From Leucocoprinus leucothites (taxonomy: Eukaryota; Basidiomycota; Agaricomycetes; Agaricales; Agaricaceae): a stretch of DNA of 64,000 nucleotides. The notes beneath the pieces were generated by a model. The model saw only the letters and a program-made list of their open reading frames with translations, was not told the DNA's origin and did no database searches. The stretch lies in assembly GCA_013368445.1 (NCBI GenBank), contig JAACJO010000007.1, forward strand, positions 1,798,001 to 1,862,000. Reading direction: 5' to 3'. Each line of letters begins with the position of its first letter. Position 1 is the first letter of the stretch. Below are positions 4,292 through 63,851 of the stretch, piece after piece. The position numbers were made by a program, and so were the translations under genes.

Positions 4292-4345
4292 TATGTAGAC
4301 ACCATTGAAGAAATCGATGATGGTGGTTAGTGGGAAAGGAGGATG

Positions 4346-44142: not shown

Positions 44143-44745
44143 TGTCAAGAACTAGGTTACTAAAAGACGGGGGATGGAGCCGATGTTCAAGACCAGGTGT
44201 CTAAGGACAGAGGAGCAGGGATGACTGATCCAGTCAATGAACATGGGAGTGGGTCTTGGCCTCAACTTATGTGTTGTGCCACTACTGACGCTGACCCAGA
44301 TTTTGGAGATGGATAGAGATGGGAGGGCAAGGAGAGAGCAGAGGTCAGACAAGGTAGTAATATGTGACTTAGTTGATTATCAGACTGAGGAATATGGTAC
44401 AAGTTCGACTACTTATATACAAGGTGGCAAGTAGGGTTGGATAGTAAGAAACAAAGACATAACAGGAAAAGGATAAGAGGATAATTAGCGTCCGACATTT
44501 TGGAAAGGCTAGAAGAATAATAATATCCAACATCAGAAGAAGACTAGAAATGACAAGAGGAATAAAACATGACATGACATGAGAAAGTCCAAACACAACA
44601 CATTAGAAGCCAAAGGGTAAAGAAGAAGAGTGGAGTGAGTGGAGTGGACATGAGCCAAAGTGATAGGATGGAAGAACAAGATGTGTAAAAGATTCTAAGT
44701 TGAGAAATTGCCAGCCGGGCTAGTAACGAGGATCGGATCATGACA
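44143..44745 (-). repeat. Ty3/gypsy 3' LTR (603 bp)
   Basis: Bounded by TGTCAAGAAC and ATCATGACA; read on the minus strand it starts TGTCATGATCC and is preceded by a polypurine tract (TAAGGGGGGAATAC). No gene is seen inside. It is assigned to the gypsy pol remnant at 63652-63851 because excision of the 17-kb G2 nest (44853-62070) brings the two within about 1.7 kb in matching orientation. Confidence 0.75.
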
Positions 44746-44852
44746 GTATTCCCCCCTTAGGGCTGAGCCCTTGAAGCCTCATGATCTGATCATGGGAATC
44801 AATTTCAAACTCCATATAAATTCCACTCTGCAAAAAATTTAAGCTTTTTTTT
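44746..44852 (+). promoter_or_regulatory. Gypsy polypurine tract and candidate antisense promoter
   Basis: The minus strand carries AAGGGGGG next to the LTR. The plus strand carries CCATATAAATTCC (TATA-like, about 44813-44823) followed by a long T/C-rich tract that continues, across the later G2 insertion, as TTCTTAACCTCCTTACTCTACC to the ATG at 62093. A TATA-like box plus pyrimidine-rich start region is usual for filamentous-fungal promoters; before the insertion it would have lain about 60 bp upstream of the ATG. Promoter activity is inferred. Confidence 0.5.
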
Positions 44853-44862
44853 TTCTTAACCT

Positions 44863-44866
<4 letters not shown>

Positions 44867-44896
<30 letters not shown>

Positions 44897-45361
44897 CAGT
44901 GGACCCCGAAGGGGTCCAAATTTATAACGCGGTGCGCGATAGCAGTCTGCGCCCGACTATCTACTACAGGGAACCGATACCGCTACCGACTACACAAAAG
45001 TAAACAACCGGGAATACATAATAGTCCTGTCCGAGACAATACACGAATCAACAACAGAAGGGGGGGCTAGGCATGTAACGAAATACAAAGAAATAAGACA
45101 TATACCGATATCACTGCATCTGATGGCAGGCCTTGTGGTTAGTGGAAGCCTATCCAGCGATCGGCGCTGGATGGGGGACGATGCGTTGACACTAGGGAGC
45201 TTCCCCTAGGCCTGGGGCCGACCAGCAGAACCAGAATGACTTTGCAGCCAATCCCGATCAAACCAGTGGCGCTAGAACACACACTTGCGGTCAGTAGCAG
45301 CATGTTCCTTGCCACAATTGACGCACTTGATATGGGGACAGGGTTCTCCAGCGGGTGTGGG
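44867..45361 (-). mobile_element. G2 retroposon, 3' part of the split insertion
   Basis: Poly(A) at about 44867-44892 on the minus strand, hairpin at 44900-44918, 3' UTR, gag stop TAG at 45208-45206, and the last ~50 gag codons (GEPCPHIKCVNCGKEHAATDRKC, WLQSHSGSAGR). It is cut at 45361 by the copia 3' LTR. The duplication TTCTTAACCTCCTT at 44853-44866 recurs at 62071-62084, beyond the G2 5' end, so 61444-62070 is the other end of this insertion. Confidence 0.85.
44900..44918 (-). other. 3'-terminal hairpin of G2 (second intact example)
   Basis: TGGACCCC-loop-GGGGTCCA with loop TTC on the minus strand; the 8-bp stem is intact while the loop differs from 40074-40092. Confidence 0.82.
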
Positions 45362-45663
45362 TGTTAGAAGGTGATGCACAGGGGACGTGTGGGAGGTCCT
45401 AGAAACCAGAGAAATCGCCCAGGAAGCTCACAACTCACACAGGAATCTGTGGACAACTGTAAATGACTAAGTTAACAAGATAGAGACTTGTGCTCACCTG
45501 TGGACAACTGTAAATGACTGAGAGTCAAGAAAGCATCCACAGGAGAGTTGAACATGCAGTCAGGTGATCTACAACTGACTAAGCAACCTCTGCATCAACT
45601 CTAAGTTCACACATCAACAAATCAATCACAAATACTTGTAGACTGTCCAGAGCACATCTGACA
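45362..45663 (-). repeat. Copia 3' LTR (LTR-c, 302 bp)
   Basis: TGTTAG...CTGACA. It is directly preceded, on the minus strand, by GATCAAGGGGGTG, a polypurine tract, and by copia pol. This defines the element to which all the LTR-c solo LTRs belong. Outer flank gtggg. Confidence 0.95.
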
Positions 45664-46494
45664 CACCCCCTTGATCTGACAAGTCCACAAGTCGTCAGAA
45701 ACACCAAAATTGACACCTACACCCTCTAGCGAGTCAATCCTAGCATGGGAACTGCAAACTCCACCATCTTGGGCTGAACAGCCTTGGTAAACAAGTCTGC
45801 CACATTCTGGCTGGTGGGAATGTACTCTGGAGCAATGAAAGCAGACTGTACAGCATCCCGGAGCCAGTAGAACCGCAGATCCAGGTGCTTCATGCGACCA
45901 TGATGCTCAGGATTCTTGGAAACATCAATCCCAGACTTGTTGTCAATCAGGAGAGTGGAAGCATAGGAAGGGGAATAGCCAAACTCTGTCAGGATGTTCC
46001 TCATCCACATGATCTCCTTGCCAGCCTCAACTGTAGCCACATACTCAGCCTCTGTAGAAGAGAGAGTAACAAAGGGCTGACGCTTGGAGGACCATCCCAC
46101 AGCTCCACCACACACTAGAGTCACATATCCACCTGTAGAGCGACCAGTTTGAAAGAGCTCCTCAGCTTCACAGCCCTTGTAAACAAGCTTGTAATCGCTT
46201 GTGCCCTTCTGATAGCGCAGGAGATGCTTCACAGCAGCCCAGTGCTCAGGATGAGGGTTGTGGTTGAATCTCCCAAGGTAGGAGACTGCATAAGCAATAT
46301 CTGGGCGAGTCATGGTGGCTAGATACTGTAGGGAGCCTACAGCAGAGAGATAGGGAATGGATCACATTTCCTCCTGCTGGGAAGGAGTGGAAACAAGTGT
46401 GGAGAGTTCTGTGCCAGGAGAGAGCGGAGTCTTCACAGAATTGCAGTCAGACATGTTGAATCTGTTCAGGAGCTCCTGGACATAGTGGGACTTT
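45664..46494 (-). pseudogene. Ty1/copia pol C-terminus (RT end and RNase H)
   Basis: The minus strand encodes the RT end (HYVQELLNRFNMSDCNSVKT), a TGA within EEM*SIPYLSAVGSL, then an open 45726-46313 stretch: MTRPDIAYAVSYLGRF, HLLRYQKGTSDYKLVYKG, SSTEAEYVATVEAGKE (RNase H Glu), LIDNKSGIDVSKNPEHHGRM, YIPTSQNVADLFTKAVQP. Those blocks are diagnostic for copia RNase H. TAG at 45728-45726 is the natural stop, about 65 bp before the 3' LTR. LINE-A copy 4 truncates it at 46494; the rest of copia and its 5' LTR are not in the window. Confidence 0.95.
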
Positions 46495-48508
46495 TTTTTT
46501 TTTTATTGTATTTTTTTTTTTTAAATCAATGAATTTATATAGCGGTGCTCGATCGCAGTCTGCTTTCAACTAAATATTACAAACAGACGGTACACTACAG
46601 CAAGCTGGGGTACACGAAGCGGTCGAAGACCACTTAAGACAGAGACTATACACGATTAGTCCAGTAACATAGATAAGACTCGAAGGAGACTATAGAACGA
46701 GGTGTCATACACAGAGATCAGTCTCAAAGGAAAAGAAAAGAGATGAGATGAGAGAATATAGTTCACCTTCATTTGGTTCGGCGGGCACAGGAGCTTGAGG
46801 CGGCGGTGGAGGCATGTTGTGATTGGTAAAGCCAAAGGCAGCTGGGTTCCTTTTCAAGAACTCAACAAGGAATTCGTACTGAGGGAAGGCGCATTGCACC
46901 CATTGAGTGTGGAAGGGATAGAGGGGGCAGTAGTACAGGATATGATGTCGTGTTTCCAGGTGATGGCCACAACGACAGGATTTGGGCTCGAGGGGGAAGA
47001 ACCTCTCGCGATACGCTCCAATAGGAGCATGATTAAGGATGGCGCGGGACATACACGCATATAATAATGGCGATTCGTTGGCTAAGGGAAGCCAGGTGCC
47101 CCCCTTGACGTAGGTGGGGATGAGGAACTTGCGATTCTTTTTTGAAAGAAGGAAACCGCTGCCGCGGTATCTCTTCTTCCAGAAAGTGGACTCCCAGGAT
47201 TTCTAGCAGTCGTTGGTGACTTTGCATCGCAAGAAATCGAGAGTAGCGCCTAAACGAGGGGGGGTGTGAATGCATGTGGAAGTGACATCTTTGTGGACTT
47301 TAAGGTGGGGCTTCCATCGCCATTTGGAAGGGACGTCCCAGAAGTCAATAGAACGAGAGGGTTTGGCTGCAAGCCAGTTGGATAAAAGTCGGCAGACTTG
47401 GATGGAGTGTGATTGGCTCAAATGTATAGAGGGATCGACTGCTAGCTTGGCTGCTGGGAGACAGTCAGTGATGAGGATGATGTGGTCGCACTGAAGGGAA
47501 ATGGCCTTGGCGATGCCAATACGGATGGAATAGAGTTCGGCGTCAGTAGACGACGCTCGACTGCTAGCCTGTTTTGCATGGGACACTTGTTGTCCACCGT
47601 GATATATATGTGCTGCCGAAACTGCCTGAAGGGAACCTACAAGTGGGACAGAAGCATCAGTAACAACTGAAATACAATTACGATTGGATGAGGAAGAGGA
47701 GAAAACAGAATCAAGAGTCGATACATGTTTGTACATTTCGTGTTTATCCGAGCGATTGCAAGGGTGGAAGTGAATAGAATCAGGAAAGATGTCCATAAGA
47801 CGAGGGCCTTTGACTTTAGCTTTTTTGGCCGGAGTGAGAAGGTGAAGCGATTGGGGATGAGGGGAGGAGTTAAGAGAGAAACTTTCAGATAAAAGAGCAT
47901 GTAATGCATGATTAGAGGGTAAAGTAGAGACTCGATATGAAGAACGACTAGCTAATTTACGAAGATGGAGGTGAATTGGAATAAGTCCAGCAATGCTTTC
48001 AGCACCACCTGATGGGGAAGTATGGAAGGCGCCTGTGATCCAGAGAGCAGCGCGTCTTTGCATAGATGAAAGGGACTTGAGAAGTGCCTTGTTACGAGTG
48101 CCTTTGAAGTACCAGAGTCGGAATCCATACATGGCCACGGGGACAACGCATGACCTATAGAGCAGACGTTTTTGTAGAGGGAGGAGGCCTCGGGTGGAAT
48201 TGCCTAGCATACCCATAGCTTTCACTGTGGATAATGCTTTGGTAGAGTAGTACCGAACATGTTCTTGAAATGATAGTCGACGGTCAAAGTAGAAGCCTAA
48301 GTACCGCCAGATACGTTTGGGATACAGTAGAGGGCTGCCAACGTCGGATAAATCAAGGGGGGGATTAGAATCATTATGATGTCGGGAGAAGTGAAAGACT
48401 TCAGATTTATCGTGTTCAACGACAAGCCCGAAATCGGTGCAAATGGAGTTAATGATGGAATAAGCTGATTTGAGGGAAGAGATAGTGTCAGTATAGTTCT
48501 TCGCTTGA
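46495..48508 (-). mobile_element. LINE-A copy 4, 5'-truncated within RT (2.0 kb)
   Basis: 3' end at 46495 (A-rich tail ...ATACAAT..., then TATAAATTCATTGATTT). The 5' truncation is at about 48508, inside RT near SQAKNYTDTIS. It is flanked by TGGACATAGTGGGAC at 46480-46494 and again at about 48509-48523. It carries ORF2 from the RT thumb to its TGA (46707-46705), including RNase H (VVTDASVPLVG, AELYSIRIG, ITDCLPAAK) and CRCGHHLETRHHILYYCPLY. Confidence 0.92.
46705..48508 (-). pseudogene. LINE-A ORF2 C-terminal half, copy 4
   Basis: Open at 47203-48225 for 340 codons (KAMGMLGNSTRGLLPLQKRL to DFLRCKVTNDC), then TAG, then further pieces to 46705. A short deletion removes part of the SDSFSPFAPESKPGS linker before RNase H (KVKGP joins directly to RLMDIFPDSI). 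The RNase H catalytic Asp-Glu-Asp blocks are intact. It lacks the endonuclease and RT catalytic motifs, so it is inactive by itself. Confidence 0.9.
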
Positions 48509-48520
48509 GATGGACATAGT

Positions 48521-48523
<3 letters not shown>

Positions 48524-48551
<28 letters not shown>

Positions 48552-50839
48552 AATAAATCAACGCAACCCCGGAGGGGTCGCCAATTTATAACGCAGTGCG
48601 CGATAGCAGTCCGCGCCCAACTACTACAATATGCAGAAAGTACCGCTACCAACTACACATCTACATAGCTAGGTATAAATATGAGTCCGAAGTCCGCCTA
48701 GTACAAACAACATCTTCACGCAGTGGTACATAGTTCAAAATGAAAGCATACTACAATACAAGTCGGGCTGTTCTGTTTTACCGGCGGATGGAAGTGCACG
48801 GCATGGATCTCCACGGCCCACCACGCACAGCGCGGGGGCAGACAATGCGACCTATAGGGAAGAGAACCCTACAGATGCGACCGAGCGGCATCGCGACGAT
48901 GGTTTTCAAGCCAAAGCCGGTCAAACCGGTGTCACCAGAATGGGCATTTGCGATCGTCAGCTGCATGCGACTTGGCGCAGTTGACGCACTTGATGTGAGG
49001 ACAGGAATCCTCGGCGGCGGTGGGCAGGATAGGGGGATTGGCCTTCGGACTCCCCTTACAACAGCTCGAGTGGGAGCGGTGGTTCTCAGTACGATGAGGA
49101 CCGCCGCAGGCGGTGCATCGCAACGCACGGGTGTGGCACGATGAGGTAGAGTGACCCCAGCGCCAGCAACGCTGACACTGAGGACTGCCTGGGTGAGCGC
49201 GTGCAGCCCAGATCACGGACTGAACACCCTCAAAGTGGAGGTACTTGCCCAGGAGCTTCTTGGCGCTCGCTCCTGATTGAGAGTCCCAGAGGTCAAACCA
49301 GACAGTGGCGGTGTCGGCTCTGGTGGAGTTGCGCATAATGCGCACGGAGGAAACATCTGCGAAAATGTCCTTGAAAGCGGACAGACGCATGCGGTTGGTC
49401 ACGTGAGTCGGCGTGATGCGGACACCGTTCACGAAGTAGGGGACGTCGAGGACCTTGAGGTAGGACCTCGACCTGGGGCGGCGCGTCTTGATCGCAAAGG
49501 GGGCGGTGAAGACGGAGGGGATGGAGGACTCAATGACGTCACAGTCGGCGTCAGAGGGAACGGAGGAGGTGTGCAGTGCGATCGTACTGTACGCCTTGGT
49601 GATGTTCTCCACACACAAGATCAACTTGGCGCGGGAGAGGGAGTCATTAAGAAGGCGCATGGCCTTGTGATGGAGATAGGTGACCTCATCGGCACTGCCG
49701 ACAAAGTCGAGGAAGAGTTGGCGGCGGGTGGGGCCCGCGGTTGTCATGCGCGGCTTCCAGGTAGTGGGAGCAGCGGCTTGGGCAGCCTGATGCATAGCGG
49801 TGATGCGATCAGGGTCGAGATCGGGGTGGGATTGCGCCAACTTAATGAGTGACGCAACCCCGGCGGGGCGGGCCGCCTTGGTGAAGGACTTCTTGACCGA
49901 GGTGGGAGGAGGGGGCACTTTGGTGGGCGCTCGCTGAGCTTGGCCATCAGACCTAGCCCTAGCTTGGGGGGGGCCACTAGCACACGCTTTAGCAGGCGCT
50001 TGCTTAGGCGGTAAGGTGGGACGGGCTGGGGCAGGCCGACGATCCGAGGGAGTCTGCTTGGGCGCTTTGGGAGAGCCCATATCAATATCACATGGTTCCG
50101 CTTTGTCAGCGGATCCATGGATCGCCTCATGGGCGACGCGCGTACGTTTAGGGTAGGCCCCCTCAACTCTGGTGGCACAGTCCCGAATGAAGTCCGCAAA
50201 TGTGTCCCATCCCTGGGCTCGCATTCGCTCGTTGGTGAGGGCCGTGTCGCCTTGGCCCCGGTTGAGAACTTCCGCAACCAGTCCAACAAGAGTCGGAATG
50301 ATCACGGCGGTGGTGGCCTCTGGAAGAGGGCCTGAGGGAACGTTCCCGATGAAGCGGGAGAAGAAACGAATCCCAGCAAGAGCCCGGGTCTCAACAGACT
50401 CCTCAGTTGACCCGGAGGAGACAGCGGACGGCGGTGCTGGGGGGGGAGGACCTTCACGGGGTAGAACGTCTGTCCGCCGGCGGTGAAGGGTTTTGGGGAC
50501 GGCGACGGAACGTCAGCCACGGGAGCGACCACCGACTGCGACGGGACGTCAGCGGCAGGCAGGGAAGAGGGTCCAGGCGACGAAACGTCAGCCTGGGGAG
50601 GTCCGAAGAACCCACGAACATTGCAGGGGTCGTCGTAGGGGTCGAGATGTTCGTCCTCGGACATCTCGGCGATGTTGAGCTCGTCGGCGGAGGCCTCGGC
50701 GGACTTGGTAGATTGGCGGGGGGGGCCTTTAAACTTAGACTTTCGCTTGCCCATGTAGAATAGGCAGAAATACGATGTAAACTAGATGTCTTAAAACACA
50801 CCAACGGATAGATGGTGGTGGTAAGAGGTCAAGGAGGGA
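48524..50839 (-). mobile_element. G1 gag-only retroposon, full length (2.3 kb)
   Basis: Poly(A) at about 48524-48552, 5' end CATCCCTCCTTGACCTC at 50839, an 85-bp leader, one gag frame and a ~320-bp 3' UTR. CpG-rich. Its poly(A) directly follows the right-hand GGACATAGTGGGAC duplication of LINE-A copy 4, so two elements used the same target. No duplicate of that sequence is found at its 5' end, which abuts a plus-strand G2 fragment. Confidence 0.93.
48869..50754 (-). pseudogene. G1 gag, near-complete (about 628 aa), one frameshift and one stop
   Basis: Best full-length G1 gag. The N-terminus is MGKRKSKFKGPPRQSTKSAE, then LNIAEMSEDEHLDPYDDP and KPFTAGGQTFYPV. A C-run of eight, where two other copies have nine, shifts the frame at about 50440. 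It then continues: HGSADKAEPCDIDMGSPKAP, RSDGQAQRAPTKVPPPP, SLIKLAQSHPDLDPDRITAM, TRRQLFLDFVGSADEVTYL, RPRSRSYLKVLDVPYFVNG, RADTATVWFDLWDSQSGASA, CQRCWRWGHSTSSC, CTACGGPHRTENH, CVNCAKSHAADDRKCPFW. TGA (48934-48932) replaces the next CGA; the natural end is RSRL with TAG 48871-48869. Only two point lesions separate it from an intact gene. Confidence 0.92.
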
Positions 50840-51719
50840 TGCCGCAACACATTACTGACCATATGCGTCTGTCTCCCTTCAAGGAGACATTCGCTAACGT
50901 ATCCTCCGTGCGCATCATGCGCAACTCCGCCAAAGCCGACACCGCCACCATCTGGGTCGACCTTTGGGATTCTCAGTCCGGCGCTAACGCTAAGCGCCTG
51001 GTTGGCAAATACCTCAACTTTGACGGCGTGCAGTCCATGATCAAGGCCGCGCGCGCTCACCCCAGGACCCCCCAGTGTCAACGATGCTGGTGATGGGGCC
51101 ACACTACCACCACCTGTCACAACCGTGCACTCAGGTGCTCACAATGCGGTGGGCCACATTGGTCCGAGAATCACTGCACTACCTCCTCCTGCTGTAAGGG
51201 ATCGCCAAAGGCCAACCCTCCCATCCAGCCCACACCCGCCGGGGAACCCTGTCCCCATATCAAGTGCGTCAATTGCGGCAAGGAACATGCTACTACTGAC
51301 CGCAAATACGCGTTCTGGCGCCACTGGTTTGATCGGGATTGGCTGCAAAGTCATTCTGGTTCTGCCGGTCGGCCCCGGGCCTAGGGGGAGCTCCCTAGCG
51401 TCAATGTATCGTCCCCCATCCATCGCCGGTCGCCGGATGGGCTCCCACCAACCACAAGGCCTGCCGTCAGATGCAGTGATATCGGTATTTGTCTCACTTC
51501 TTTGTATTTTGTTACATACCTAGCCCCCTTCTGCTGTCGATTCGTGTATTGTCTCGGACAGGACGTTTATATATTTCCGGTTGTTTACTCTTGTGTAGTC
51601 GGTAGCGGTATCGGTTCCCTGTAGTAGATAGTCAGGCACGGACTGCTATCGCGCACCGCGTTATAAATTGGCAACCCCTCCGGGGTCGCACTTGATTTAA
51701 AAAAAAAAAAAAAAAAAAA
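50840..51719 (+). mobile_element. G2 retroposon, 5'-truncated; gag C-terminus with one stop
   Basis: Starts head-to-head against the G1 5' end, inside PQHITDHMRLSPFKETFANV. Gag is open to 51090, where TGA replaces the residue after CQRCW, then WGHTTTTC, CSQCGGPHWSENH, CVNCGKEHATTDRK and GRPRA with TAG at 51382-51384. The third knuckle is damaged (Tyr for Cys in RKYAFW). The 3' UTR ends TATAAATTGGCAACCCC and poly(A) at 51700-51719, a G1-like hairpin sequence on a G2 body. No other gene lies in 51385-51719. Confidence 0.87.
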
Positions 51720-52363
51720 TCCATACAGTTTTAGAGTTTGTATTCCAAGATTTGTGAAAGATTCGAGAAATAGAGTTAGAGATATTGTTCAGACAAGAAG
51801 TAGAATGAATGTTCGAGCAGTCAAGGGCCGCTAGATGCTCAGAGACTTGGGAAATGAAAGCCGTCTCTTCATCGCTATCTTTCGGTAGTACACGTTTTTT
51901 ATAATTAATATAATCTGGACAGATTGGAAGATCCATAATCAAGGGTACGTGATCCGATGGGAGCCTTGAATTAACATCGATGATATGGGGGGTGGAATTG
52001 TTAGCACAAAAAATAAGGTCAATAACCGAATTGTCATGACTTTCAATGGAAGAGAAATGAGTTGGGGATAATGAGGTCGGTGAGGACCTTGTAAGATTGA
52101 AGCCATCCGCTAACTCCGTTAGAGTTATAGCTGACATAGGGATGTAGGTAGCTGAAGGGTCCCATTCTGGAGATTGACAATTAAAGTCCCCTCCCATATA
52201 TATAACATTAGGGATGTTGATGAAGTTCATTGAAAGAAAATTGATCGCCGACGAGGACGAGTCAGAGTATATGTTAATTAGGTGAATATAGTTACCCTGG
52301 TTGAATAAACCCAAGATTTGTATATCGCGGTGGTTAACCCACTCTTGTCAAAGAATGGGCCTC

Positions 52364-54629
52364 CATCCCTCCTTGACCTCTTACCACCACCATCTATTCA
52401 TTGGTGTGTTTTAAGACGTCTAGTTTACATCGTATCTCTGCCTATTCTACATGGGCAAGCGAAAGTCTAAATCTAAGGGCCCCCCCCGCCAATCTACCGA
52501 GTCCGCCGAGGCCTCCGCCGACGAACTCAACATCACCGAGATGTCCGAAGACGAACATCTCAACCCCTACGACGACCCCCGCAACGTTCGCGGGTTCCTC
52601 GGACCTCCCCAGGCTGACGTTTCGTCGCCTGGACCCTCTTCCCTGCCTGCCGCTGACATTTTGTCGCGGTCGGTGGTCGCTCCCGCGGCTGACGTTCCGT
52701 CGCCATCCCCAAAACCCTTCACTGCCGGTGGACAGACGTTCTACCCCGTAAAGGATCTCCCCCCCCCAGCACCGCCGTCCGCTGTCTCCTCCGGGTCAAC
52801 TGAGGAGTCTGTTGAGACCCGGGCTCTTGCTGGGATTCGTTTCTTCTCCCACTTCATCAGGAACGTTCCCTCAGGCCCTCTTCCAGAGGCCACCACCGCT
52901 GTGATCATCCCGACTCTTGTTGGGTTGGTTGCAGAAGTTTTCAACCGGGGCCAAGGCAACACGGCCCTCGTCAGCGAGCGAATGCAAGCCCAGGGATGGG
53001 ACACATTTGCAGATTTCATCCGGGACTGTGCCACCAGAATTGAGGAGGCCTACCCTAAACGTACGCGCGTCACCCATGAGGCGATCCATGGATCCGCTGA
53101 CAAAGCGGAACCACGTGACATTGACATGGGCTCCCCCAAAGCGCCCAAGCAGACTCCCTCGGATCGTCGGCCTGCCCCGGCCCGTCCCACCTTACCGCCT
53201 AAGCAAGCACCTGCTAAAGCGCGCGCTAGTGGCCCCCCCCAAGCTAGGGTTAGGTCTGATGGCCAAGCTCAGCGAGCGCCCACCAAAGCGCCCCCTCCTC
53301 CCACCTCGGTCAAGAAGTCCTTTGCCAAGGCGGCCCACCCCGCTGGGGTTACGTCACTCATTAAGTTGGCGCAATCCCACCCCGATCTCGACCCTGATCG
53401 CATCACCGCTATGCATCAGGCCGCCCAAGCCGCCGCCCCCGTCACTCGGAAGCCGCGCATGACAACCAAGGGGTCCTACCCGCCGCCAACTTTTCCTCGA
53501 CTTCGTCGGCAGTGCCGATGAGGTCACTTATCTTCATCACAAGGCCATGCGCCTTCTCAACGACTCCCTCTCCCGCGCCAAGTTGATCTTGCGTGTGGAG
53601 AACATCACCAAGGCGTACAGCACGATTGCACTGCACACCTCCTCCATTCCCTCTGACGCCGACTGTGACGTCATTGAGTCCTCCATCCCCTCCGTCTTCA
53701 CTGCCCCCTTTGCGATCAAGACGCGCCGCCCCAGGTCGAGGTCCTACCTCAAGGTCCTCGACATCCCTTACTTCGTGAATGGTGTCCGCATCACACCGAA
53801 TCACGTGACCAACCACATGCGACTGTCCGCCTTCAAGGACATTTTCGCAGATGTTTCCTCCGTGCGCATTATGCGCAACTCCACCAGAGCCGACACCGCC
53901 ACCATCTGGTTCGACCTCTGGGACTCTCAATCAGGAGCGAGCGCCAAGAAGCTCCTGGGCAAGTACCTCCACTTTGAGGGTGTTCAGTCCGTTATCCGGG
54001 CTGCACGCGCTTACCCAGGCAGTCCACAGTGTCAGCGTTGCTGGCGCTGGGGTCACTCTACCTCATCGTACTGAGAACCACCGCTCCCACTCGAGCTGTT
54101 GTAAGGGGAGTCCGAAGGCCAATCCCCCGATTCCGCCCACCCCCGCCAAGGATACCTGTCCTCATATCAAGTGCATCAACTGTGCCAAGTCGCATGCAGC
54201 TGATGATCGCAAGTGCCCATTCTGGCGACACCGGTTTGACCGGCTTTGGCTTGAAAACCATCGCCGCAATGCCGCTCGGTCGCGTCTGTAGGGTTCTCTT
54301 CCCTACAGGTTGCATTGTCTGCCCCCGCGCTGTGCGCGGTGGGTCATCGAGATCCATGCCGTGCATTTTCCATCCGCCGGTAAATCAGAACAACCTGACT
54401 TGTATTGTAGTATGCTTTCATTTCGAACTATGTACCACTGTGTGAAGATATCGTTTGTACTAGGCGGACTTCGGACTCGTATATGTATTCCTAGCTATGT
54501 AGATGTGTAGTTGGTAGCGGTACTTTCTGCATGTTGTAGTAGTTGGGCGCGGACTGCTATCGCGCACCGCGTTATAAATTGGCGACCCCTCCGGGGTTGC
54601 ACTTGATTAAAAAAAAAAAAAAAAAAAAG
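52364..54629 (+). mobile_element. G1 gag-only retroposon in LINE-A ORF2, full length
   Basis: 5' end CATCCCTCCTTGACCTC, 3' poly(A) at 54609-54628, flanked by the 13-bp duplication AAGAATGGGCCTC (52351-52363 and 54630-54642). It has the G1 leader, gag and a 3' UTR with a hairpin at about 54582-54600 (one G-T pair). No gene other than gag. Confidence 0.96.
52451..54291 (+). pseudogene. G1 gag with frameshift and knuckle deletion
   Basis: Open from MGKRKSKSKGPPRQSTESAE (52451) to about 53460 (KPRMTT), where an extra base shifts the frame and the shifted frame stops at 53521. The true frame resumes at 53547: MRLLNDSLSRAKLILRVENI, RPRSRSYLKVLDIPYFVNG, RADTATIWFDLWDSQSGASA, CQRCWRWGHSTSS. A deletion between direct repeats CCTCATCGT then removes the rest of knuckle 1 and CTACGGPH, shifting the frame again. 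The tail CINCAKSHAADDRKCPFW, RHRFDRLWLENH and RSRL ends at TAG 54289-54291. It keeps CGA codons that are TGA in sibling copies. Confidence 0.9.
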
Positions 54630-54940: not shown

Positions 54941-57900
54941 TTAAACAGCAACTCCGCCACCGGAGCGATTGGAATTGGTGCAAACTGCACGTGCGGTGCA
55001 TGATTCGGTGGCTTTGTTGGAATGCCAGGTTCGGTCAAACCTGTTCCTCCAGAATGGACATTTGATGTCGTTTGCATGATGATCACCTTTGCAGTTTAGG
55101 CATTTGAAATTCTCTAGGTGAGGACATGGGATGCCCTCCGGAGTGGCATCGCGGGGGGGATTGGATTTGGGGTTGGCCTTACAACACCAGGCCATGGATC
55201 GGTGGTTTTCAATATGGTGAGGGCCGCCACAGATTTGGCAACGTTGTTAGAATGTAAAATGATAGAGAGTAGAGGATGATAAGAGAGTAGAGGAAAGCTC
55301 AGACACTGACACTGACACACACACAAAAGTGGGGAAGAAGATAATCAATTGGGAGGCTGAGGCCCTCCTTATATACCTAGCTACATAGTCTGTGTGCAGT
55401 ATGGTCATGTGACTACAACTATCCCTATTTAGACAAAGGGGGTGAGGCTGAAGCTGGTCATAATCTAACAAACGTGCGCCGAGAGCATGACACGCATGAG
55501 TGGGATGACCCCAACGCCAGCAGTTCCTACATTGTGCGATGCTGGGGTGCATACTAGTGGCCCGGATGGTTCCGACATGTCGGCCAAAGTTGATAGTAGG
55601 GTTGACCAACGTCTTGGCCTTAGTACCGTTTTGGGAATCCCAGATATCAAACCACATGACGGCTGTGTCCGATTTTGGGGAGGCTTTCATAACGCGAGGG
55701 TGGGCGGCAAGAATAACATTTTCGAACAAAGTAGATTGTCCAAGGGCTTGTTCAACGAATGCAGGGGAAAGGGGGTTGGAGGAATTGGCTACCCAATAAG
55801 GGATGCCGACGATTTTAAGGAACGATTTAGATTGTGGGAGACGAGGCTCAACGGGGATGGCGTCTCCTAGTTGCCAGGCTTTTTTCAGCCAGGATTTGAT
55901 GGTTTCCAGGTCAGCGGGGGACGCGACACCTGAGGTGGCAATAGAAATGCCGTTATATGATTCGCGAACTGATTCGATGCGAAGTTTGGATTGAGCGGCA
56001 GTAAGGCCACGATTACAGAACTTGGCTGCCTTGTTGAAGTCTTTGATGCAGTCAGCGATGATATTCCCTTCAAACGGGATGAGGACTTGACGACGGGTAG
56101 GTCCGTGCATGGTCATTTTAGGTTTAGTGTGTGGGGCGCTTGCGGTTGAAGGTTTGGGCGCTTGAGGTTGGGCGCCTCCAAAACCTGCCTTGTACATAGC
56201 AAGGACTTTGTCATATGATAATTCAGGGAAGGCGAGTATCATTTCTCGCATCTTAACCCCATCAATATTGGAAGAAGAGTTGGAAGAGGAAATTGCCGGC
56301 TGGACACCCCATCGGGCGGCATCAGCGAATGACACATTCTTCTTGTTGAAATGTTCCATAAGGGGTTTGGTGGATGCCTTACGGTCAGGAGGGGGAATAG
56401 GAGGTGGCATGTCAGAGGCGCCCTTGGGGTTAGGTTTTGATGGCTGAGCCTGGCCATCAGAAGAGGGACGCCCAACTGAGCGCTCGAAGTTTCCATTCCC
56501 ATTCCTTGGGGTCACGTGATTGGAAGGTGGAGGGGGGGCCCGGGAGACGCGAATAGGACCGGAGGGCTTAGAAGACATAACATCATTCTTTGCCTTCAGG
56601 GAGCCTGACACGGACGAGATGTCACGTGCCTTACCAGAAGACTTAACGTCATTCTGGGGGAGAGGAATGGTGCCCTCAGCGGAAGGGGCTTGGTCGATGT
56701 TCATGTGATCATTGTCGATGCGTGCTGTAGGGTTAGTTTGCCCAACGACAATGCCAGGCGGGAATAGGGGGGTAGGGATGGTAGACGGATAAGGATTACG
56801 TGCCTTTTTTCCCTTCCCTTTACCTTTGGGAGGGGGGGACGAGTCCGTCATGGGAATATCGGGAGGCGGGCCATAGTAGTGCCTTAATGCATCTACGATT
56901 GTGAGACCGCTTTCGCCATTAATGGGGAGCCGGTCCCAGCCTGTTTCAAACATAGTGGTGAGTAGACAATATATTGGTTCCCCCATCTGGGGAACTCTTG
57001 GATCCTTTCTGCCAGGTTGTAATCCTAGCGCAGCACGGTGCTTAAAGAAATTAGTAGTATATTTAAGCGCCTCCAGCGCTTTGAAAGTAGCTTCACCGAC
57101 AACAACAGTTTCTTCAGTGGCAGTGTTCAATGGATCCTTAAGATCCGGCAGGTGTGGCTGTGCAGGCCTAGGCTCCTGCGGCTGTGCAGTGATGTCACCA
57201 GTGACATCATGTGTGACGTCATATGTGACGTCATTAGTATTAGATGAACTGGCAAAGAAGGTAGCTGGAGTGCCGGTTGGCACAGCATTTGCTGACTCAG
57301 CAGATCCATGGATCGCATGAGGCAGCCTTGAGGTGGGTGGGGGTCCAAAGAACCGAATGGCAGGTTCCCCGTTTCTGATAATCCCATCCTCTTGGTCGCT
57401 CCATGCATCCCCGCGAGAGTCCAAGTTCAGAGGGTCAGGTTTGTTGAGCTCACCAAGAAATCCCTCGCTGAATGGACAGAAGGGAATGGGTGACTTGAAA
57501 CCGTCATATGCACTCATCGACGCAGTTCTTGAGATGGCTTTGGGTGTAGACTCCAATCCTCTACGGACGTCACGAGCGCGGGCCCGTTTGGAACGCGACG
57601 ATGGAGGAGGAGGAGTTCTGAGGGAGGAGTGTGAGGCTGCACGGGAAAGTGCAGCATGTACATTTATGGGGGAGGAAGGGGTTGAAGATCCAGACGAATC
57701 AGAATCACTCTCACCACTTTCTTCGATGTCAGATCCTGCTCTGGATGAGGCGGCCGACTTGGCGTCATCGCGAGCGGAATGTTTGGTTGATTTGATAGAA
57801 AGCGCGGGCAAAATAGAGCGGTCGCACTTGTAGGTTGAGACACGTGTTTCAGTGTCAACGATGTTGATGGGGTCCAAAGACGGTGGAGGTGTACCCTTGA

Positions 57901-57967
57901 GGTCCACCCAATGTGATGGTGCAGTCATATCGATAGAGTTCATAGTCAAATTGTATGTAGACACCAT
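54941..57967 (-). pseudogene. LINE-A ORF1 gag, intact apart from a solo-LTR insertion
   Basis: From ATG 57967 (MVSTYNLTMNSIDMTAPSHW) to TAA 54943-54941. Without the 231-bp LTR plus duplication the frame is continuous at 931 residues, the reference ORF1 for this window. Regions: acidic Ser-rich 60-110, TPKAISRTASMSAYDGFKSP, LPHAIHGSAESANAVPTGTP, KGKGKGKKARNP, HFNKKNVSFADAARWG, VLIPFEGNIIADCIKDFNKA, PQSKSFLKIVGIPYWVANSS, SDTAVMWFDIWDSQNGTKAK, then knuckles CRNCWRWGHPTHAC, CQICGGPHHIENH, CLNCKGDHHANDIKCPFW. The LTR falls between ALGAR and CQICGG and introduces stops. A nucleic-acid-binding, particle-forming role is inferred from LINE ORF1 proteins. Confidence 0.92.
55245..55470. repeat. LTR-s: 226-bp solo LTR of a second family
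   Basis: TGTTAGAATG...AATCTAACA with inverted termini TGTTAGA/TCTAACA and the 5-bp duplication aacgt on both sides (55240-55244 and 55471-55475). Unrelated in sequence to LTR-c apart from the ends. It contains a TATATA-like stretch at about 55371. No internal element sequence for this family is present in the window. Confidence 0.88.
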
Positions 57968-58014
57968 CAAAGAAATCGATGATGGTGGTAAGAGGGAAAG
58001 GAGGATGCTGGTCG

Positions 58015-61000
58015 CCACTCAAACCCTTCACAGCCGGTGGAACCACCTTCTACCCTGTTGATGCTCCCCCTGCCATGCCCAAATCAGTGACCTCCTCCAA
58101 GGGAAAGAAGAAGGAGCTCACCCCAAAGCGCGCTCTCTCCAGCCTCCGGACATTCCTCAAGTGGTTAGAGGATTGTGCTAAATCCCACTCCTCCATCGCA
58201 GAGGAAGACACTTCTGCGGCCATCACATGCCTTGCTAAGGTGGCCTTCGTCATCGTCGACGAGTTGGAACTTGACGGCACCCCCCTCTCCTCACACTCGC
58301 TCAGCTCTCGTGGGCTGGTTGATTTTGGGGATGTATTGTATGACCTCAGGCGCAAGTGTGGGCTGCCCAAGACCGGCCCTAAAGCAATGCGCGTCATCCA
58401 CGAGGTGACCCATGGATCCACTGACTCAGCAGGCCCACGTGACATTGACATGGGTTCCCCCAAGGCGCCCACCTTACTGCCCCCGGATCGTCAGCCCGTC
58501 CCAGCCCGTCCCTCCCTACTGCCCAAGCCGGCGCCTGCAAAGGCCCGCGCTAGTGGCAAAGCACCCATTCAAGGGCCCCCCGCTCCTAAGGTTAGGTCTG
58601 ATGGCCAAGCCCGGCGAGCACCCATCCCACCCTCAGCGGCTAAGAAGTCGTTTGCTGAGGTAGCCTGTACCCCGGGTGTCTGCGGCAGTGCTTATCAAGC
58701 TAGCCCAGTCCCACCCCACCCTTGAGCCCGATCATGTCGCCATGATGCATCAGGCTGCCCTCGCTGATGCACCTTCTGTGAAGAAGCCCTGCATGACCAC
58801 GTCGGGCCCCACCCGATGCCAACTCTTCCTCGATTTCACTGGCAATTCCAGTGATATCACTTATCTCCACCACAAGGCCATGCGCCTTCTCAACGACTCC
58901 CTCACTCACGTGAAGAGTTTACTTTGCATCGAGAACATTGCTCGGGCGTACGACACCATCTCATTGTACACCAACTCCGTTGCCACTGATGCTGATGCAT
59001 CAGTGATTGAATCCTCCCTCTCTTCAGCCTTCACTGCCCCGTTTGAGCTGAAGACCAAGCGCCCCAGGTCCAGGTCTTACCTCAAGATCCTGGACATCCC
59101 TTATTTTTTTATTTTTTATTTTTTATTTAAATCAATGAATTTATATAGCGGTGCTCAATCACAGTCCGCTTTCAACTAAATATTACAAACAGATGGTACA
59201 CTACAGCAAGCTGGGGTACACGAAGCGGTCGAAGACCGCTTAAGACAGAGACTATACATGATTAGTCCAGCAACATAGATAAGGCTCGAAAGAGACTATA
59301 GAACGAGGTGTCATACACAGAGATCGGTCTCAAAGGAAAAGAAGAGAGATGAAATAAGAGAGTATAGTTCACCTTCATTTAGTTCGGCGGGCACATGAGC
59401 TTGAGGCAGTGGTGGATGCGTGTCATGATTGGTAAAAGCAAAGGCGGCCGGGTTCTTTTTCAAGAACTCAACAAGGAATTTGTATTGAGGGAAAGTGCAT
59501 TGCACCCATTGAGTGCGGAAGGGATAGAGGGGGCAGTAACACAGGATATGATGTCATGTTTCCAGGCGATGGCCACAACGACAGGATTTGGGCTCAAGGG
59601 GGAAGAACCTCTCACGATAAGCTCCAATAGGAGCATGATTGAGGATGGCACGGGACATACGCGCACATAATGATGGCGATTCATTGGCTAAGGGAAGCCA
59701 GGTGCCCCCTTTGACGTAAGTGGGGGTGAGGAACTTGCGATTCTTTTTTGAAAGGAGGAAGCCGCTGCCGCAGTATCTCTTCTTCCAGAAAGTGGATTCC
59801 CAGGATTTCTGGCAGTCATTGGTGATTTTGCGTTGCAAGAAATCAAGAGTAGCACCTAATCGAGGGGGGGCGTGTATGCATGTGGAAGTGATGTCTTTGT
59901 GGACTTTAAGGTGGGGCTTCCAGTGCCATTTGGAAGGGACGTCCCAGAAGTCGACGGAGCGAGAAGGTTTGGCTGCGAGCCAGTCAGCTAAGAGTCAACA
60001 GACTTGGATGGAATGTGATTGGCTCGAATGTATAGAGGGATCGACTGCTAGCTTGGCTGCTGGGAGGCAGTCGGTGATGAGAATGATGTGGTCGCACTGG
60101 AGAGAGATGGCCTTGGTGATGCCAATACGAATGGAGTAGAGTTCGGCGTCAGTAGACGATGCTCAACCGCTAGCCTGTTTTGCATAGGACACTTGCCGTC
60201 CGCTGCGATATAAATGTGCCGCCGAAACCACCTGAAGGGAACCTACAAGTGGAACAGAAGCATCAGTAACAACTGAGATACAATTACGATCGGAAGAAGA
60301 AGAGGAAAAAGTTGAATTGAGAGATGATACATGATTATACATTTCATGTTTATCCGAGCGATTGCAGGGGTGAAAGTGAATAGAATCAGGAAAGATGTCC
60401 ATAAGACGAGATCCAGGCTTTGATTCGGGAGCGAATGGAGAAAAGGAGTCAGAAAGATGAGAAAGAGAACTATCTACATCGATAAGAGGGCCTTTGACTT
60501 TAGCTTTTTTGGCCGGAGTGAGAAGGCAGGACATCTCTTATTACACGAGTGGCATCTGCACCACTCCGCAACACATTACCAACCGTATGTGTCTGTCTCC
60601 CTTCAAGGAGACATTCACTAACATATCCTCCATGCACATCATGCGCAACTCTGCCAAAGCTGACACTGCCACCGTTTGGGTCGACCTTTGGGATTCTCAG
60701 TCCGGCGCTAATGCCAAGCACCTGGTCGGCAAATACCTCAACTTCGATGGTGTCCAGTCTATGATCAAGGCTGCACGTGCTCACCCCGGGACCCCCCAGT
60801 GTCAACAATGCTGGGACTGGGGCCACACTACCACCACCTGTTGCAACCGTGCGCTCAGGTGCTCACAATGCGGTGGGCCACATCAGTCCAAGAATCACTG
60901 CACCACCTCCTCCTGTTGTAAGAGATTGCCAAAGGCAAACCCCCCCATTCAGCCCACACCCGCTAGGGAACCCTGTCCCCATATCAAGTGCGTCAATTGC

Positions 61001-61108
61001 GGCAAGGAACATGCCACTACTGACCACAAGTGCGCATTCTGGCACCACCGGTTTGATCGGGATTGGCTGCAAAGTCATTCTGGTTCTGCTGGTTGGCCCC
61101 GGGCCTAG
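58015..61108 (+). pseudogene. G2 gag, frameshifted and interrupted
   Basis: LKPFTAGGTTFYPVDAPPA, KGKKKELTPKRALSSLRTFL, SHSSIAEEDTSAAITCLAKV, HGSTDSAGPRDIDMGSPKAP and APAKARASGKAPIQGPPAP are open to 58670. A base change in length at CTPG/VSAA shifts the frame, which resumes at 58676: LIKLAQSHPTLEPDHVAMMH, TRCQLFLDFTGNSSDITYL, RPRSRSYLKILDIPY. After the LINE-A insert (1437 bp with duplication, a multiple of three) it continues YYTSGICTTPQHITNRMCLS, ADTATVWVDLWDSQSGANAK, CQQCWDWGHTTTTC, CSQCGGPHQSKNH, CVNCGKEHATTDHKC, and ends SAGWPRA with TAG at 61106-61108. Confidence 0.9.
59106..60528 (-). mobile_element. LINE-A copy 7, 5'-truncated (1.4 kb)
   Basis: A-rich tail (TTTTTATTTT pattern) and the 3' end TATAAATTCATTGATTT on the minus strand. 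It carries the ORF2 end from the LTPAKKAKVKGPLIDVDSSL linker through RNase H (VVTDASVPLVG, ITDCLPAAK) to CRCGHRLETRHHILCYCPLY and the stop near 59311, with several nonsense codons. It is flanked by GGACATCCCTTATT (59092-59105) and GGACATCTCTTATT (60529-60542), one mismatch. Confidence 0.93.
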
Positions 61109-61443
61109 GGGGAGCTCCCTAGTGTCAACACATTGTCCCCCTTCCATCGCCGGTTGCCGGATAGGCTTCCACCAACCACAAGGCCTGCCATCAGATGCAG
61201 TGATATTGGTATATGTTTCATTCTTTGTATTTTGTCACATGCCTAGCCCCCTTCTGTTGTCGTTTCACGTATTGTCTTGGACAGGACTATTATGTATTCC
61301 CAGTTGTTTGCTCTTGTGTAGTTGGTAGTGGTATCAGTTCCCTGTAGTAGATAGTCAGGCGCGGACTGCTATCATGCACCACGTTATAAATTGGCAACCC
61401 CTCTGGGGTCGCACTTGAAGAAAAAAAAAAAACAAAAAAAAAA

Positions 61444-62070
61444 GAGCTGAGCAAGTGTGAGGTGAGGGGGGCGCCATCAAGTTCGAGGTTGTCGATGATG
61501 ATGATGGCTGCCTTGGCAAGGCATGTGACGGCCGCAGATGCATCCTCCTCTGCAATGGAGGAGTGGGAGTTGGAGCATTCCTCAAGCCACTTGAGGAATG
61601 TCCAGAGGTTTGTGAGAGTGCGCTTTGGGGTGAGCTCCTTCTTCTTTCCCTTGGAGGAGGTCACTGATTCAGGCACGGCAGGGGGAGCATCAACAGGGTA
61701 GAAGGTGGTTCCACCGGCTGTGAAGAGTTTGAGTGGCGACAGAACGTCAGCCACTTGGGGAGCAACCGACGGCGATGAAATGTCAGCAGTCAGTTGGGAG
61801 GGGCCAGGCGACGGTATGTCAGCCTGGGGGGGGCCAAGGAACCCACGCACGTTGAGTGGGTTGTCGTAGGGGTCAAGGTGGTCGTCTTTGGCCATCTTGG
61901 TGATGTTGAGCTTGTCATCAGAGATGGCGGACTCGGATTCGAACGCGGCAAACTGGTTAGCAGTAGCTTTAGACTTGCATCTACCCATATTACTGTAGAT
62001 AGACGATGTAGGAATGCCTCAGAACAAACACCAACTTTCGATGGTGGTGGTAAGAGGACAAGGAGGGATG
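61444..62070 (-). mobile_element. G2 retroposon, 5' part of the split insertion, with gag N-terminus
   Basis: The leader starts CATCCCTCCTTGTCCTC at 62070 and ATG is at 61988. Gag is open through MGRCKSKATANQFAAFESES, DKLNITKMAKDDHLDPYDNP, LKLFTAGGTTFYPVDAPPA, KGKKKELTPKRTLTNLWTFL, SHSSIAEEDASAAVTCLAKA and DNLELDGAPLTSHLLS, to truncation at 61444 by the neighbouring G2 poly(A). It gives the intact G2 N-terminus. The flanking TTCTTAACCTCCTT at 62071-62084 pairs with 44853-44866. Confidence 0.88.
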
Positions 62071-62092
62071 TTCTTAACCTCCTTACTCTACC

Positions 62093-63359
62093 ATGGTGTC
62101 TAACTCGCAGACTCAATAATCCAAACCAGCATCCGACATTGATTTCGAGGAGGCTCTCGCCATGCTGGACGCAGAGGATGCACACGAGCAAGCCGAGGAA
62201 GAGGAGAGGAGGAAGCAGGAAGCCAAAGAAGTGGCAAGGAAACAGAGGGTTGAGGAAGAAAGGGAGAAGAAGAGAGAGAAGTTGCAAAAGATAAAAGAGG
62301 CAAAGGAAGCAGAGAAGAAGAGAGCCAAAGAGGAGGAGCAGAAGCGGAAGGAGGAGGAGGACAAGAGGTTGTGGAAGGAGTTGGAGGCTGCAGCGGCTTT
62401 GGAAGCGAGGGAGAGAGAGAGAGAGAAAGAGAAGGGGAAGGGAAAAGGAAAAGGAAAGGAGAAAACAGGAGAGTCTGTTCCCATCAAGCAGAAAGTGGAT
62501 GCAGAGGCCAGGCCTGCGACAAAGAAGACGAAAAGGAATGTACCCGCAATGGGCATGAGAGAACTCCCACCTCCAAGGGTGGCCACCGCAAATGTCGGAA
62601 AAGGGATCAACCGAGGGCCTACCCCTGGTCTCTCCCGAGTGTCCACCAGTGACGGTGGATTGTATGCTCCTGATTGTGACTCAGATGTCGAGATCAAGGA
62701 TACTCCCAAGAAGAAATGGGGGAACTATGACAAGAAGGGTAGGAAGGTGAAGATGGGTGGCAAGAACGAGTGCAGGCAGTGTCGGTGGTTGGGCAAGGAC
62801 TGCAAGATGCAGTCAGGTGAGTAAGTTGATTCTTCTGCTTTCCAATATCAGGTCACAGCTGATCTTCCACAGCAACAAGTACATGTGTGAGGTGTGCAAT
62901 AGCTCAAAACAGTGTTGCATGTTCCCCTCTGAGGCAGACAAGGCCCCTCACAAACAGATGTACGACTTGATCATCGAGACCTGCACTACACGAACGGTGA
63001 TGATGGAGTTGGTGGCAGAGGTGAAGGAGTTGAGGGCTGAGATCGGGAGTTGGCAGGATAGGATGTTGAGATTAGCGAGGTGGGGTAACATGCAGAGGCA
63101 TGAGCTCGTGGAGGAGTTCAAGGCCTTCTTTGAGCACTGCATGTTTGATGGGCACTTGATGAGTGACGCAAAGTTTGAGGAGGAGAAGAAGAAGGAAGAG
63201 GAAGAGTGGCTGAAGGCCCAAGCCACATCACAGAAATCAGGTGAAGTCCCAATGTCGGGAGCTGTGGCATCTGGGTCGGGTGAATCAAAAGTGGATGAAG
63301 GGCCTGAAGAGGATGAGGGGGATGAAGAGGAAGATGGGGGTGAGAGTGGAAAGGAGTAG
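62093..63359 (+). CDS. Two-exon coiled-coil protein with Zn(II)2Cys6-like cluster, antisense to gypsy
   Basis: Exons 62093-62820 and 62873-63359, with a 52-bp intron (GTAAGT...CACAG). The original ATG is probably 62093, but codon 9 is TAA; the next in-frame ATG, 62162, gives 381 residues. From that Met: K/E-rich helical repeats (about 10-90), a basic KGKGKGKGKEK tract, PALS/PTPGLSRVS linker, then cysteines 204, 207, 214, 225, 228 and 235 (CRQCRWLGKDC, MCEVCNSSKQCC). This is C-x2-C-x6-C-x10-C-x2-C-x6-C, the spacing of fungal Zn2Cys6 DNA-binding clusters, with the intron in the central loop. A second coiled coil (MELVAEVKELRAEI...) and an acidic tail (EEDEGDEEEDGGE) follow. It lies between gypsy pol and its 3' LTR, on the opposite strand. 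DNA binding is inferred from spacing only; paralogous host-type proteins of this general build are possible. Confidence 0.72.
62821..62872 (+). other. Predicted 52-bp spliceosomal intron
   Basis: Donor GTAAGT at 62821, acceptor CACAG ending 62872. Splicing joins SGGA-type codons as Ser-Gly-Asp-Asn-Lys-Tyr and keeps the frame. Alternative donor GTGAGT at 62817 does not keep the frame with any nearby AG. Confidence 0.75.
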
Positions 63360-63651
63360 TCAGTCGTGTCATCATATCTTGCTGTATATTGGACTTGTTG
63401 GTAGCTGTGTTGAATGTGATGCCCTTGCCTGTGCTTTGAAGTGTGAAGAATTTAAGCCTAATATAGAGATCAGATAGAAAGCTATCAAGATAAGAATTGT
63501 GAAGTCCATGTAGCTGAACTGCGATACAGGGTAACTAAGATTTGAAGATAAGGATAATGAATAGAGAAAAAGTTCATAGTAGTAGTACTTGATAGAAGGA
63601 AGTTGGTCCAGAGAGAAGAGACAAAAAGGATAATGCGAGCTGATATGGAGT
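63360..63651. other. Convergent spacer between antisense gene and gypsy pol
   Basis: 292 bp between the plus-strand stop (TAG 63357-63359) and the minus-strand pol stop (63654-63652). I see no further gene here; it would hold the 3' ends of both transcripts. Confidence 0.6.
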
Positions 63652-63851
63652 CTAGGATAATGGAAGTGGACCAGGCTTGTGAGGATAAGTAGCATGGAAA
63701 TCAGCGATGAGTTCAGCTGCATGCGTGAGCTCAGTTGTGGGTAGCCAGGATGATTCTTCTTCAGTATCTTCATAACCCAACCAAAAGACCTTGTATAGGA
63801 GTTTACAAGCACGACGATGGTTGATTTTAGAGTCAACAATGCGGTCGATTT
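63652..63851 (-). pseudogene. Ty3/gypsy pol C-terminus: chromodomain
   Basis: The minus strand reads KIDRIVDSKINHRRACKLLY then KVFWLGYEDTEEESSWLP and TTELTHAAELIADFHATYPH, ending KPGPLPLS and TAG. This is the chromodomain that closes chromoviral integrases; the aromatic residues Tyr, Trp and Trp are in place. It is interrupted upstream (to the right) by an LTR-c at 63852. The rest of pol lies beyond the window. In these elements the domain guides integration to marked chromatin. Confidence 0.9.

Follow-up and report, generated by a model that had tools for sequence, protein, structure and literature searches.

Several long terminal repeat (LTR) retrotransposons carry an additional gene that lies antisense to gag and pol, between pol and the 3' LTR. 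In plants, such antisense additional open reading frames (ORFs; aORF-3R) are described in Grande (gene23), RIRE2, Retand and PvRetro13 (PMC7264820; PMC11963269). Those of Retand encode TRP28 proteins (PF04195; PMC11963269), while the Grande gene is driven by a promoter of its own and its product is nuclear (PMC7264820; PMC11963269). In the ascomycete Botrytis cinerea, the chromovirus Boty has an additional antisense gene, brtn (Zhao et al. 2011, as cited in PMC8365987; also in PMC5987419), placed between pol and the 3' LTR (PMC7264820); a Boty-like element comprises gag, protease, reverse transcriptase, integrase and a chromodomain (PMC4227169). The functions of the plant and Boty genes were still called unknown in a 2020 review (PMC7264820). 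Here we describe an antisense gene of a Ty3/gypsy chromovirus in the basidiomycete Leucocoprinus leucothites, an agaric, starting from a damaged copy in a stretch of 64,000 nucleotides (the window; contig JAACJO010000007.1, C7:1798001-1862000). Genome-wide searches were confined to the 47-Mb genome of this fungus.

The element resembles Boty in being a fungal gypsy chromovirus with an antisense gene between pol and the 3' LTR. It differs in its host and in that the gene is found here in three families, with selection measured; brtn was compared by description only. An earlier note on the window, made from the sequence alone, had known of no such gene in fungi, a claim that brtn overturns (PMC8365987, PMC4227169, PMC7264820). 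With the plant aORF-3R the gene shares place and orientation, presence in most copies of a family, and a suspected nuclear or DNA-binding role (in the excerpts of PMC7264820 and PMC11963269). Retand, however, belongs to a non-chromovirus lineage with a pol-LTR region of 2.9-6.6 kb, compared with ∼1.7 kb here, and the present gene differs from the plant ones in its Zn2Cys6-like cluster and its intron. Pfam gave no TRP28 (PF04195) match for the predicted antisense proteins P0001 (family A), P0002 and P0003 (family B) or for family C exon 1. The available part of a survey of fungal LTR elements (PMC3248453) makes no mention of an antisense gene, and titles and abstract beginnings of the open-access papers listed yielded no basidiomycete or zinc-cluster case. 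Within the reach of these searches, the new points are that the host is a basidiomycete, that three families keep a Zn2Cys6-like plan, that intron and TATA box are conserved, and that selection has been measured.

The antisense gene within complete elements

The antisense gene has 41 DNA matches in the genome, fragments included, and 19 further copies of the window's family (family A, L010-L028) were taken with their flanks. The complete copy L010 consists of an LTR (772-1372), the antisense gene (1501-2761, plus strand), pol (3081-6851, minus strand, 1257 amino acids (aa)), gag (6836-8494, minus strand, 553 aa) and a second LTR (8493-9093), with gag and pol in two reading frames. Its pol contains the Pfam domains RVP_2, RVT_1, RT_RNaseH, Integrase_H2C2, rve and Chromo, all above cut-off. 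By its domain order, terminal chromodomain and LTRs with short duplications, the family is a Ty3/gypsy chromovirus. The product obtained by splicing the L010 gene is identical, letter for letter, to the NCBI protein D9756_010445 (P0001), and that of the family B copy L030 to P0003.

Perfect 5-bp target duplications flank 14 of the 16 complete elements compared, and in the other two, four of the five bases match. Both ends were compared in 14 copies of the L010-L028 set, 12 of which have identical 5-bp duplications outside the LTRs; the comparison left out L014 (second LTR outside the stretch), L019, L023, L024 and L027, the last with LTR fragments on both sides. The complete B and C elements have the perfect 5-bp duplications CTGGT and GTAGC, respectively. 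LTR pairs are 90.7-100% identical in the 12 copies with perfect duplications; those of L010 and L012 are identical over 601 bases and those of the B element over 559, and the C element pair is 99.6% identical. Complete copies with near-identical LTRs are young. Because complete copies hold the gene inside the target duplications, the gene is part of the element, antisense and between pol and the 3' LTR, as the earlier note had proposed from the interrupted window copy. The duplications around whole elements rule out that a host gene merely happens to lie beside part of a gypsy element. Two of the family A copies, L021 and L022, lie on different contigs within common flanking sequence (inverted), and are seemingly one insertion duplicated with its surroundings.

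A protein query with exon 2 gave 78 genome matches, whose identity over long stretches ranges between 100% and 29%; 69 of them lie within 3 kb of a convergent chromodomain. Family B was read from the diverged loci (L029-L036, L045, L047 and L048); its genes are intact in L029, L030 and L036, and its NCBI proteins are P0002 (400 aa) and P0003 (391 aa). A chromodomain query listed 150 matches; 36 at 31-37% identity were dropped and 114 kept, fragments counted singly. An A/B gene lies convergent within 3 kb in 70 of these. Two loci read among the other 44 (L038 and L039, the latter with a frameshifted first exon) carry a different antisense gene, defining family C, and a search with this gene gave 44 matches and explains 33 of the 44. 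In total, an antisense gene lies convergent within 3 kb of 103 of the 114 related chromodomain matches, so that the position, orientation and presence in most copies that define plant aORF-3R recur here, and the idea that the gene is dispensable in the family is rejected. The place of the gene inside complete copies and the exon-2 count also bear out the earlier note, which named as refuting it family copies without the gene, or the gene alone at conserved host loci. Families A, B and C are related and alike in design, with an antisense gene between pol and the 3' LTR.

One family A copy (C4:1211045-1218501; C4:1216524) has pol pieces identical to those of L010 and lacks most of the antisense gene; this deletion derivative may have moved with the help of other copies. 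In L041, the sole distant chromodomain family read, there is no antisense ORF of at least 90 aa in the 2.4 kb behind the chromodomain. Further sense-strand ORFs lie behind its pol (L041:1-3001), one with zinc-knuckle-like cysteines.

A 51-53-bp GT...AG intron is present in all 20 aligned A copies, window included, and in family B at the same place and phase; in both families it splits the two cysteine halves. In family C a separate GT-AG intron, in frame and 60 bp long, lies beyond the cysteine and heptad-like region. A sense-strand intron of a retroelement would be lost through copying of spliced RNA, while an antisense intron is invisible to splicing of the genomic RNA. Since only sense RNA is copied, the antisense intron would survive transposition, and the fact that it persists agrees with expression of the gene solely from the opposite strand.

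The protein sequence is under strong purifying selection, as shown in family B. Among the three intact B genes the ratio of nonsynonymous to synonymous divergence (dN/dS) is 0.105-0.130 at dS 0.42-0.89, compared with 1.1-2.3 in other frames of the same sequences apart from one reverse frame (see below), a favourable answer to the codon-level check suggested by the earlier note. Between A and B, third codon positions differ at 0.55-0.60 and second positions at 0.35-0.37. Intact A copies (dN/dS 0.34-0.42) are too close for a strong statement, and the family C pair L038/L044 (L044 broken) has dS 0.21 and dN 0.07. The antisense gene is the fastest-evolving gene of the element. Protein identity between A and B is 90% for pol, 74% for gag (over 250 residues) and 44% for the antisense protein; between A and C it is 76% for pol and 38% for gag, with nothing beyond chance for the antisense protein. 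The B and C antisense proteins are 31% identical over 35 residues at the cysteines (E 0.02).

Cysteine cluster, leader and priming site

The antisense protein comprises a long charged helix (predicted at 15-131 in P0002), a basic stretch, a double C-x2-C-x6-C motif, a helix (272-343) and an acidic tail. The basic stretch in family A, KRKADAEAGPATKKTKR, resembles a nuclear localisation signal. The cysteine spacing is C-x2-C-x6-C-x10-C-x2-C-x6-C in A and B, as the earlier note had read it, and C-x2-C-x6-C-x8-C-x2-C-x6-C in C. An alignment of the five intact A and B proteins shows no change at any of the six cysteines, and the double motif is common to the three families while the remainder diverges. 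The fungal Zn2Cys6 domain (PF00172) has the pattern C-x2-C-x6-C-x(5-12)-C-x2-C-x(6-8)-C, which the spacings of all three families fit. Behind the cysteines, AlphaFold2 places the helix 272-343 of the B protein directly after the cluster (pLDDT 80-90 over 281-340), and in family C a heptad-like stretch was seen by eye. The cysteine region is better modelled in family C (single sequence; blocks of 60-84).

The Pfam model Zn_clus scores 19.3 bits on a cut-out family B fragment (cut-off 21) and is absent from four scrambled controls; whole-protein scores are 13.1 (P0002) and 13.2 (P0003), with none listed for P0001, which UniRef names 'Zn(2)-C6 fungal-type'. Pfam found no transcription-factor domain beyond the cluster region. 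A search of solved structures gave nothing meaningful, and Foldseek gave no match for the C model and one unrelated match (E 7.3) for the B model. Membership in PF00172 is therefore not established on these scores, and it is plausible, judging from the spacing and layout, that the protein works like a Zn2Cys6 regulator. It shares with Gal4-type factors (PF00172) the cysteine spacing, the coiled-coil-like helix behind the cluster and the basic and acidic stretches; it differs from them in scoring below the Pfam cut-off, in its intron-split halves (A and B), in belonging to a mobile element and in having no further factor domain.

No relatives outside L. leucothites were found among 5.77 billion proteins, in a search reaching only relatives with exact 5-residue words in common (one search scored the 7982 candidates with the most words in common), barring one weak match, P0004, the fourth hit of that one search. 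It reflects a low-complexity run of charged residues and is not taken to be a relative. The viral and prokaryote contigs searched also held no relative.

Upstream of the gene, from the polypurine tract to the ATG, 110 of 125 aligned bases are identical between L010 (A) and L029 (B), TATAAAT included. This box starts 59-61 bp before the ATG in uninterrupted copies (65 in L017) and occurs in 25 of the 26 A/B leaders found by the search pattern. A promoter of the gene's own in A and B is therefore likely from the leader sequence, and the putative sense promoter, TATATAA in the LTR of A and B, is separate. Ahead of the antisense TATA box, the leaders of A (L010:1373-1500) and B (L029:696-824) share the conserved block CGTGAnnTGATCGTGGGAA, which contains two CGTG repeats (by eye). 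The family B leader also has CACGTG, and the block is a candidate for the site at which a regulator binds. Compared with dinucleotide shuffles, the A and B LTRs are richer in CGG half-site pairs; 0/300 and 2/300 shuffles reach the observed value.

In the sequence directly inside the 5' LTR, a stretch of 11 bases can pair with the presumed RNA start, which is placed 33 (A) or 35 (B) bases after the start of TATATAA. Family C also has an 11-base complementarity, in which both sides differ from A/B yet still pair. The pairing was read at L010:8453-9093 (A), L029 and L037 (B), and L038 and L042 (C); a random control was not used, as the sampled stretches could include the LTR itself. Such a self-priming arrangement is known from Tf1 (Tf1/sushi type), in which LTR-adjacent sequence likewise pairs with the element's own RNA start. 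Judged by this pairing, families A, B and C are self-priming elements; they differ from the Tf1/sushi type in having an antisense gene, and gag and pol in two frames.

The window copy and its insertions

The window copy is a dead, interrupted chromodomain gypsy element (Table 1). The LTR, polypurine tract, two-exon gene, intron and chromodomain are all present where the earlier note had located them. The LTR is 89% identical to both L010 LTRs.

Table 1. Features of the family A copy in the window (window coordinates).
Feature	Position	Strand	Evidence or remarks
3' LTR of gypsy family A copy, TG...CA	44143..44745	-	∼88-90% identity to best-matching LTRs elsewhere
Polypurine tract adjoining 3' LTR	44746..44758	-	Sequence; nearly unchanged in printed A, A2 and B leaders
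Leader / probable promoter of antisense gene	44746..44866	+	L010 (A) vs L029 (B): 110/125 aligned bases identical
TATAAAT box	44815..44821	+	Same place in 25/26 A/B leaders
14-bp target-site duplication, left copy	44853..44866		Identical to 62071-62084
Later insertion, nested retroelements, splitting gypsy copy	44867..62070		Duplication at both ends; ORFs
14-bp target-site duplication, right copy	62071..62084		Identical to 44853-44866
Exon 1 of antisense gene	62093..62820	+	Charged helix, basic stretch, first C-x2-C-x6-C; premature TAA in window copy
Intron	62821..62872	+	GTAAGT...CAG, 52 bp, separates the two cysteine halves
Exon 2 of antisense gene	62873..63359	+	Second C-x2-C-x6-C, helix-like stretch, acidic tail; open in window copy
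C-terminal end of pol with chromodomain	63652..63851	-	Interrupted at 63852; Pfam Chromo 7e-8 in complete L010 pol
Solo-LTR-like 302-bp repeat within pol	63852..64000		TG...CA ends, GATTT each side; ∼150 bp further past window end

The two copies of the 14-bp duplication, TTCTTAACCTCCTT, are letter-identical, and uninterrupted L010 has this stretch only once, 8 bp before the ATG; the intervening 17 kb is therefore an insertion at one site. It is found in none of the 19 other copies aligned. The earlier note's account of the 17 kb as one later insertion stands for the site; as to its content, it is a nest rather than a single element, judging by non-LTR element ORFs that face both ways (recognised by eye). 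As the TATA box lies to the left of the insertion, the window gene is separated from it, and the gene has an in-frame TAA at codon 9 (62117-62119). The chromodomain ends at 63851 only on account of an inserted TG...CA repeat, 302 bp long and accompanied by a 5-bp duplication; pol picks up again at ∼64154, outside the window, and more breaks follow in pol and gag.

Two further copies of the 302-bp repeat, one inverted, lie near the gypsy LTR (43847-44098 and 45362-45663), and a copia-like RNase H ORF was seen by eye at 45726-46313. Non-LTR nests whose ORFs face either way, together with long runs of T or A, occupy 44867-62070 and 1-43800 (by eye). In broken copies of the gene (L014, L016-L028 and window 62093-63359), many C-to-T and G-to-A changes make stops (by eye, uncounted), resembling methylation-linked or repeat-induced point mutation-like changes.

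Proposed role and alternatives

We consider the chances about even that the accessory gene of this self-priming fungal chromovirus clade encodes a nuclear regulator that binds DNA and is built on a Gal4-like plan, and that in A and B the gene has a promoter to itself. The gene, opposite to gag-pol and behind its own TATA box next to the 3' LTR (A and B), would be expressed and spliced to give a nuclear protein with a divergent, probably zinc-binding Zn2Cys6-type cluster, a coiled coil behind it for dimerisation, and basic and acidic stretches, as in a Gal4-type factor. The protein would most likely bind DNA, in the first place the element's own LTR or leader, tuning its transcription up or down; alternatively, it may affect the fate of element DNA in the nucleus. 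Since the genomic RNA has to traverse the antisense gene from end to end, transcription in one direction should work against transcription in the other, and the pair would form a natural switch. The earlier note was right on what is there and largely right on what it is, and the DNA-binding function it suggested would agree with this proposal.

Several results weigh against this proposal or parts of it. The target duplications of L021 and L022 are imperfect, matching at four of five bases (2 of the 16 elements). Eleven of the 114 chromodomain matches have no gene within 3 kb, although in three (C9:1691823, C2:1747310 and C50:31540) one lies 3.0-4.4 kb away, and stops, frameshifts or truncation break 15 of the 20 aligned A copies, as old copies would be expected to show. 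A low dN/dS (0.20-0.25) is also seen in the reverse frame with common third codon positions, again an expected result. None of P0001, P0002, P0003, the family C exon and the fragments attains the Zn_clus cut-off of 21 bits; AlphaFold2 has low confidence at the cysteines of the B protein (blocks of 44-55), and Foldseek found no zinc-cluster protein for the B or C model. CGG half-site pairs in the A/B LTRs are not above parts of the element's own coding sequence. The promoter beside the LTR proposed in the earlier note is made likely by the leader TATA box in A and B; in family C, none of four leaders has this box.

The protein might instead serve the element's DNA or RNA, as an RNA chaperone or as a nuclear-import or integration cofactor acting with Gag, the chromodomain integrase or cDNA. 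Its cysteines and basic stretches would lend themselves to binding nucleic acids, and the protein changes fast together with gag (between A and B, gag is 74% and the antisense protein 44% identical, with pol at 90%). We regard this as unlikely, since family A gag ends in its own CCHC-like knuckle (by eye), a separate antisense promoter would give awkward timing with Gag, and a coiled coil behind Zn2Cys6 spacing is the layout of transcription factors. Somewhat less probable is a counter-silencing protein that keeps new copies active against host RNA interference, methylation or heterochromatin, its rate of change reflecting an arms race. Its fastest evolution in the element would agree with this, as would the C-to-T and G-to-A changes in which old copies are rich (by eye), which make silencing or mutation pressure likely; dN/dS among B genes, however, is low rather than raised, and Pfam gave no similarity to a known suppressor.

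That the antisense RNA itself is the agent, through double-stranded RNA or copy-number control, with the reading frame of little weight, appears improbable: purifying selection acts on the amino acids, and the cysteines are kept across three families. By position the antisense mRNA is complementary to the genomic RNA over its full length, and antisense control is discussed for other elements (in the available part of PMC7264820). A host gene near which gypsy copies landed, or one recently captured, is very improbable and already contradicted for the gene as such by the complete elements that enclose it inside duplications. It would accommodate the 6 of 78 exon-2 matches with no recognised gypsy part nearby (one at a contig end) and the 9 of 44 family C gene matches with no chromodomain within 3 kb; the gene is, however, common to diverged families, and protein searches give only L. 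leucothites proteins, bar the one weak low-complexity match.

Returning to the DNA-binding regulator, a wider version can be put forward only tentatively, and we rather doubt it as a whole: that a fungal retrotransposon clade has kept its own dimeric Gal4-type factor through at least three families, as an intron-bearing gene that opposes gag-pol and co-evolves with and switches the element's control DNA. Such a factor would be to the transposon what antisense regulators are to complex retroviruses. The genome offers young intact copies, three diverged families, a domain plan, and a candidate promoter and target DNA, making the question of function directly testable. If the gene does encode a DNA-binding regulator, it shows that a transposon can bring along a transcription factor dedicated to it, and that a place on the uncopied strand is enough for an intron to last in a retroelement.

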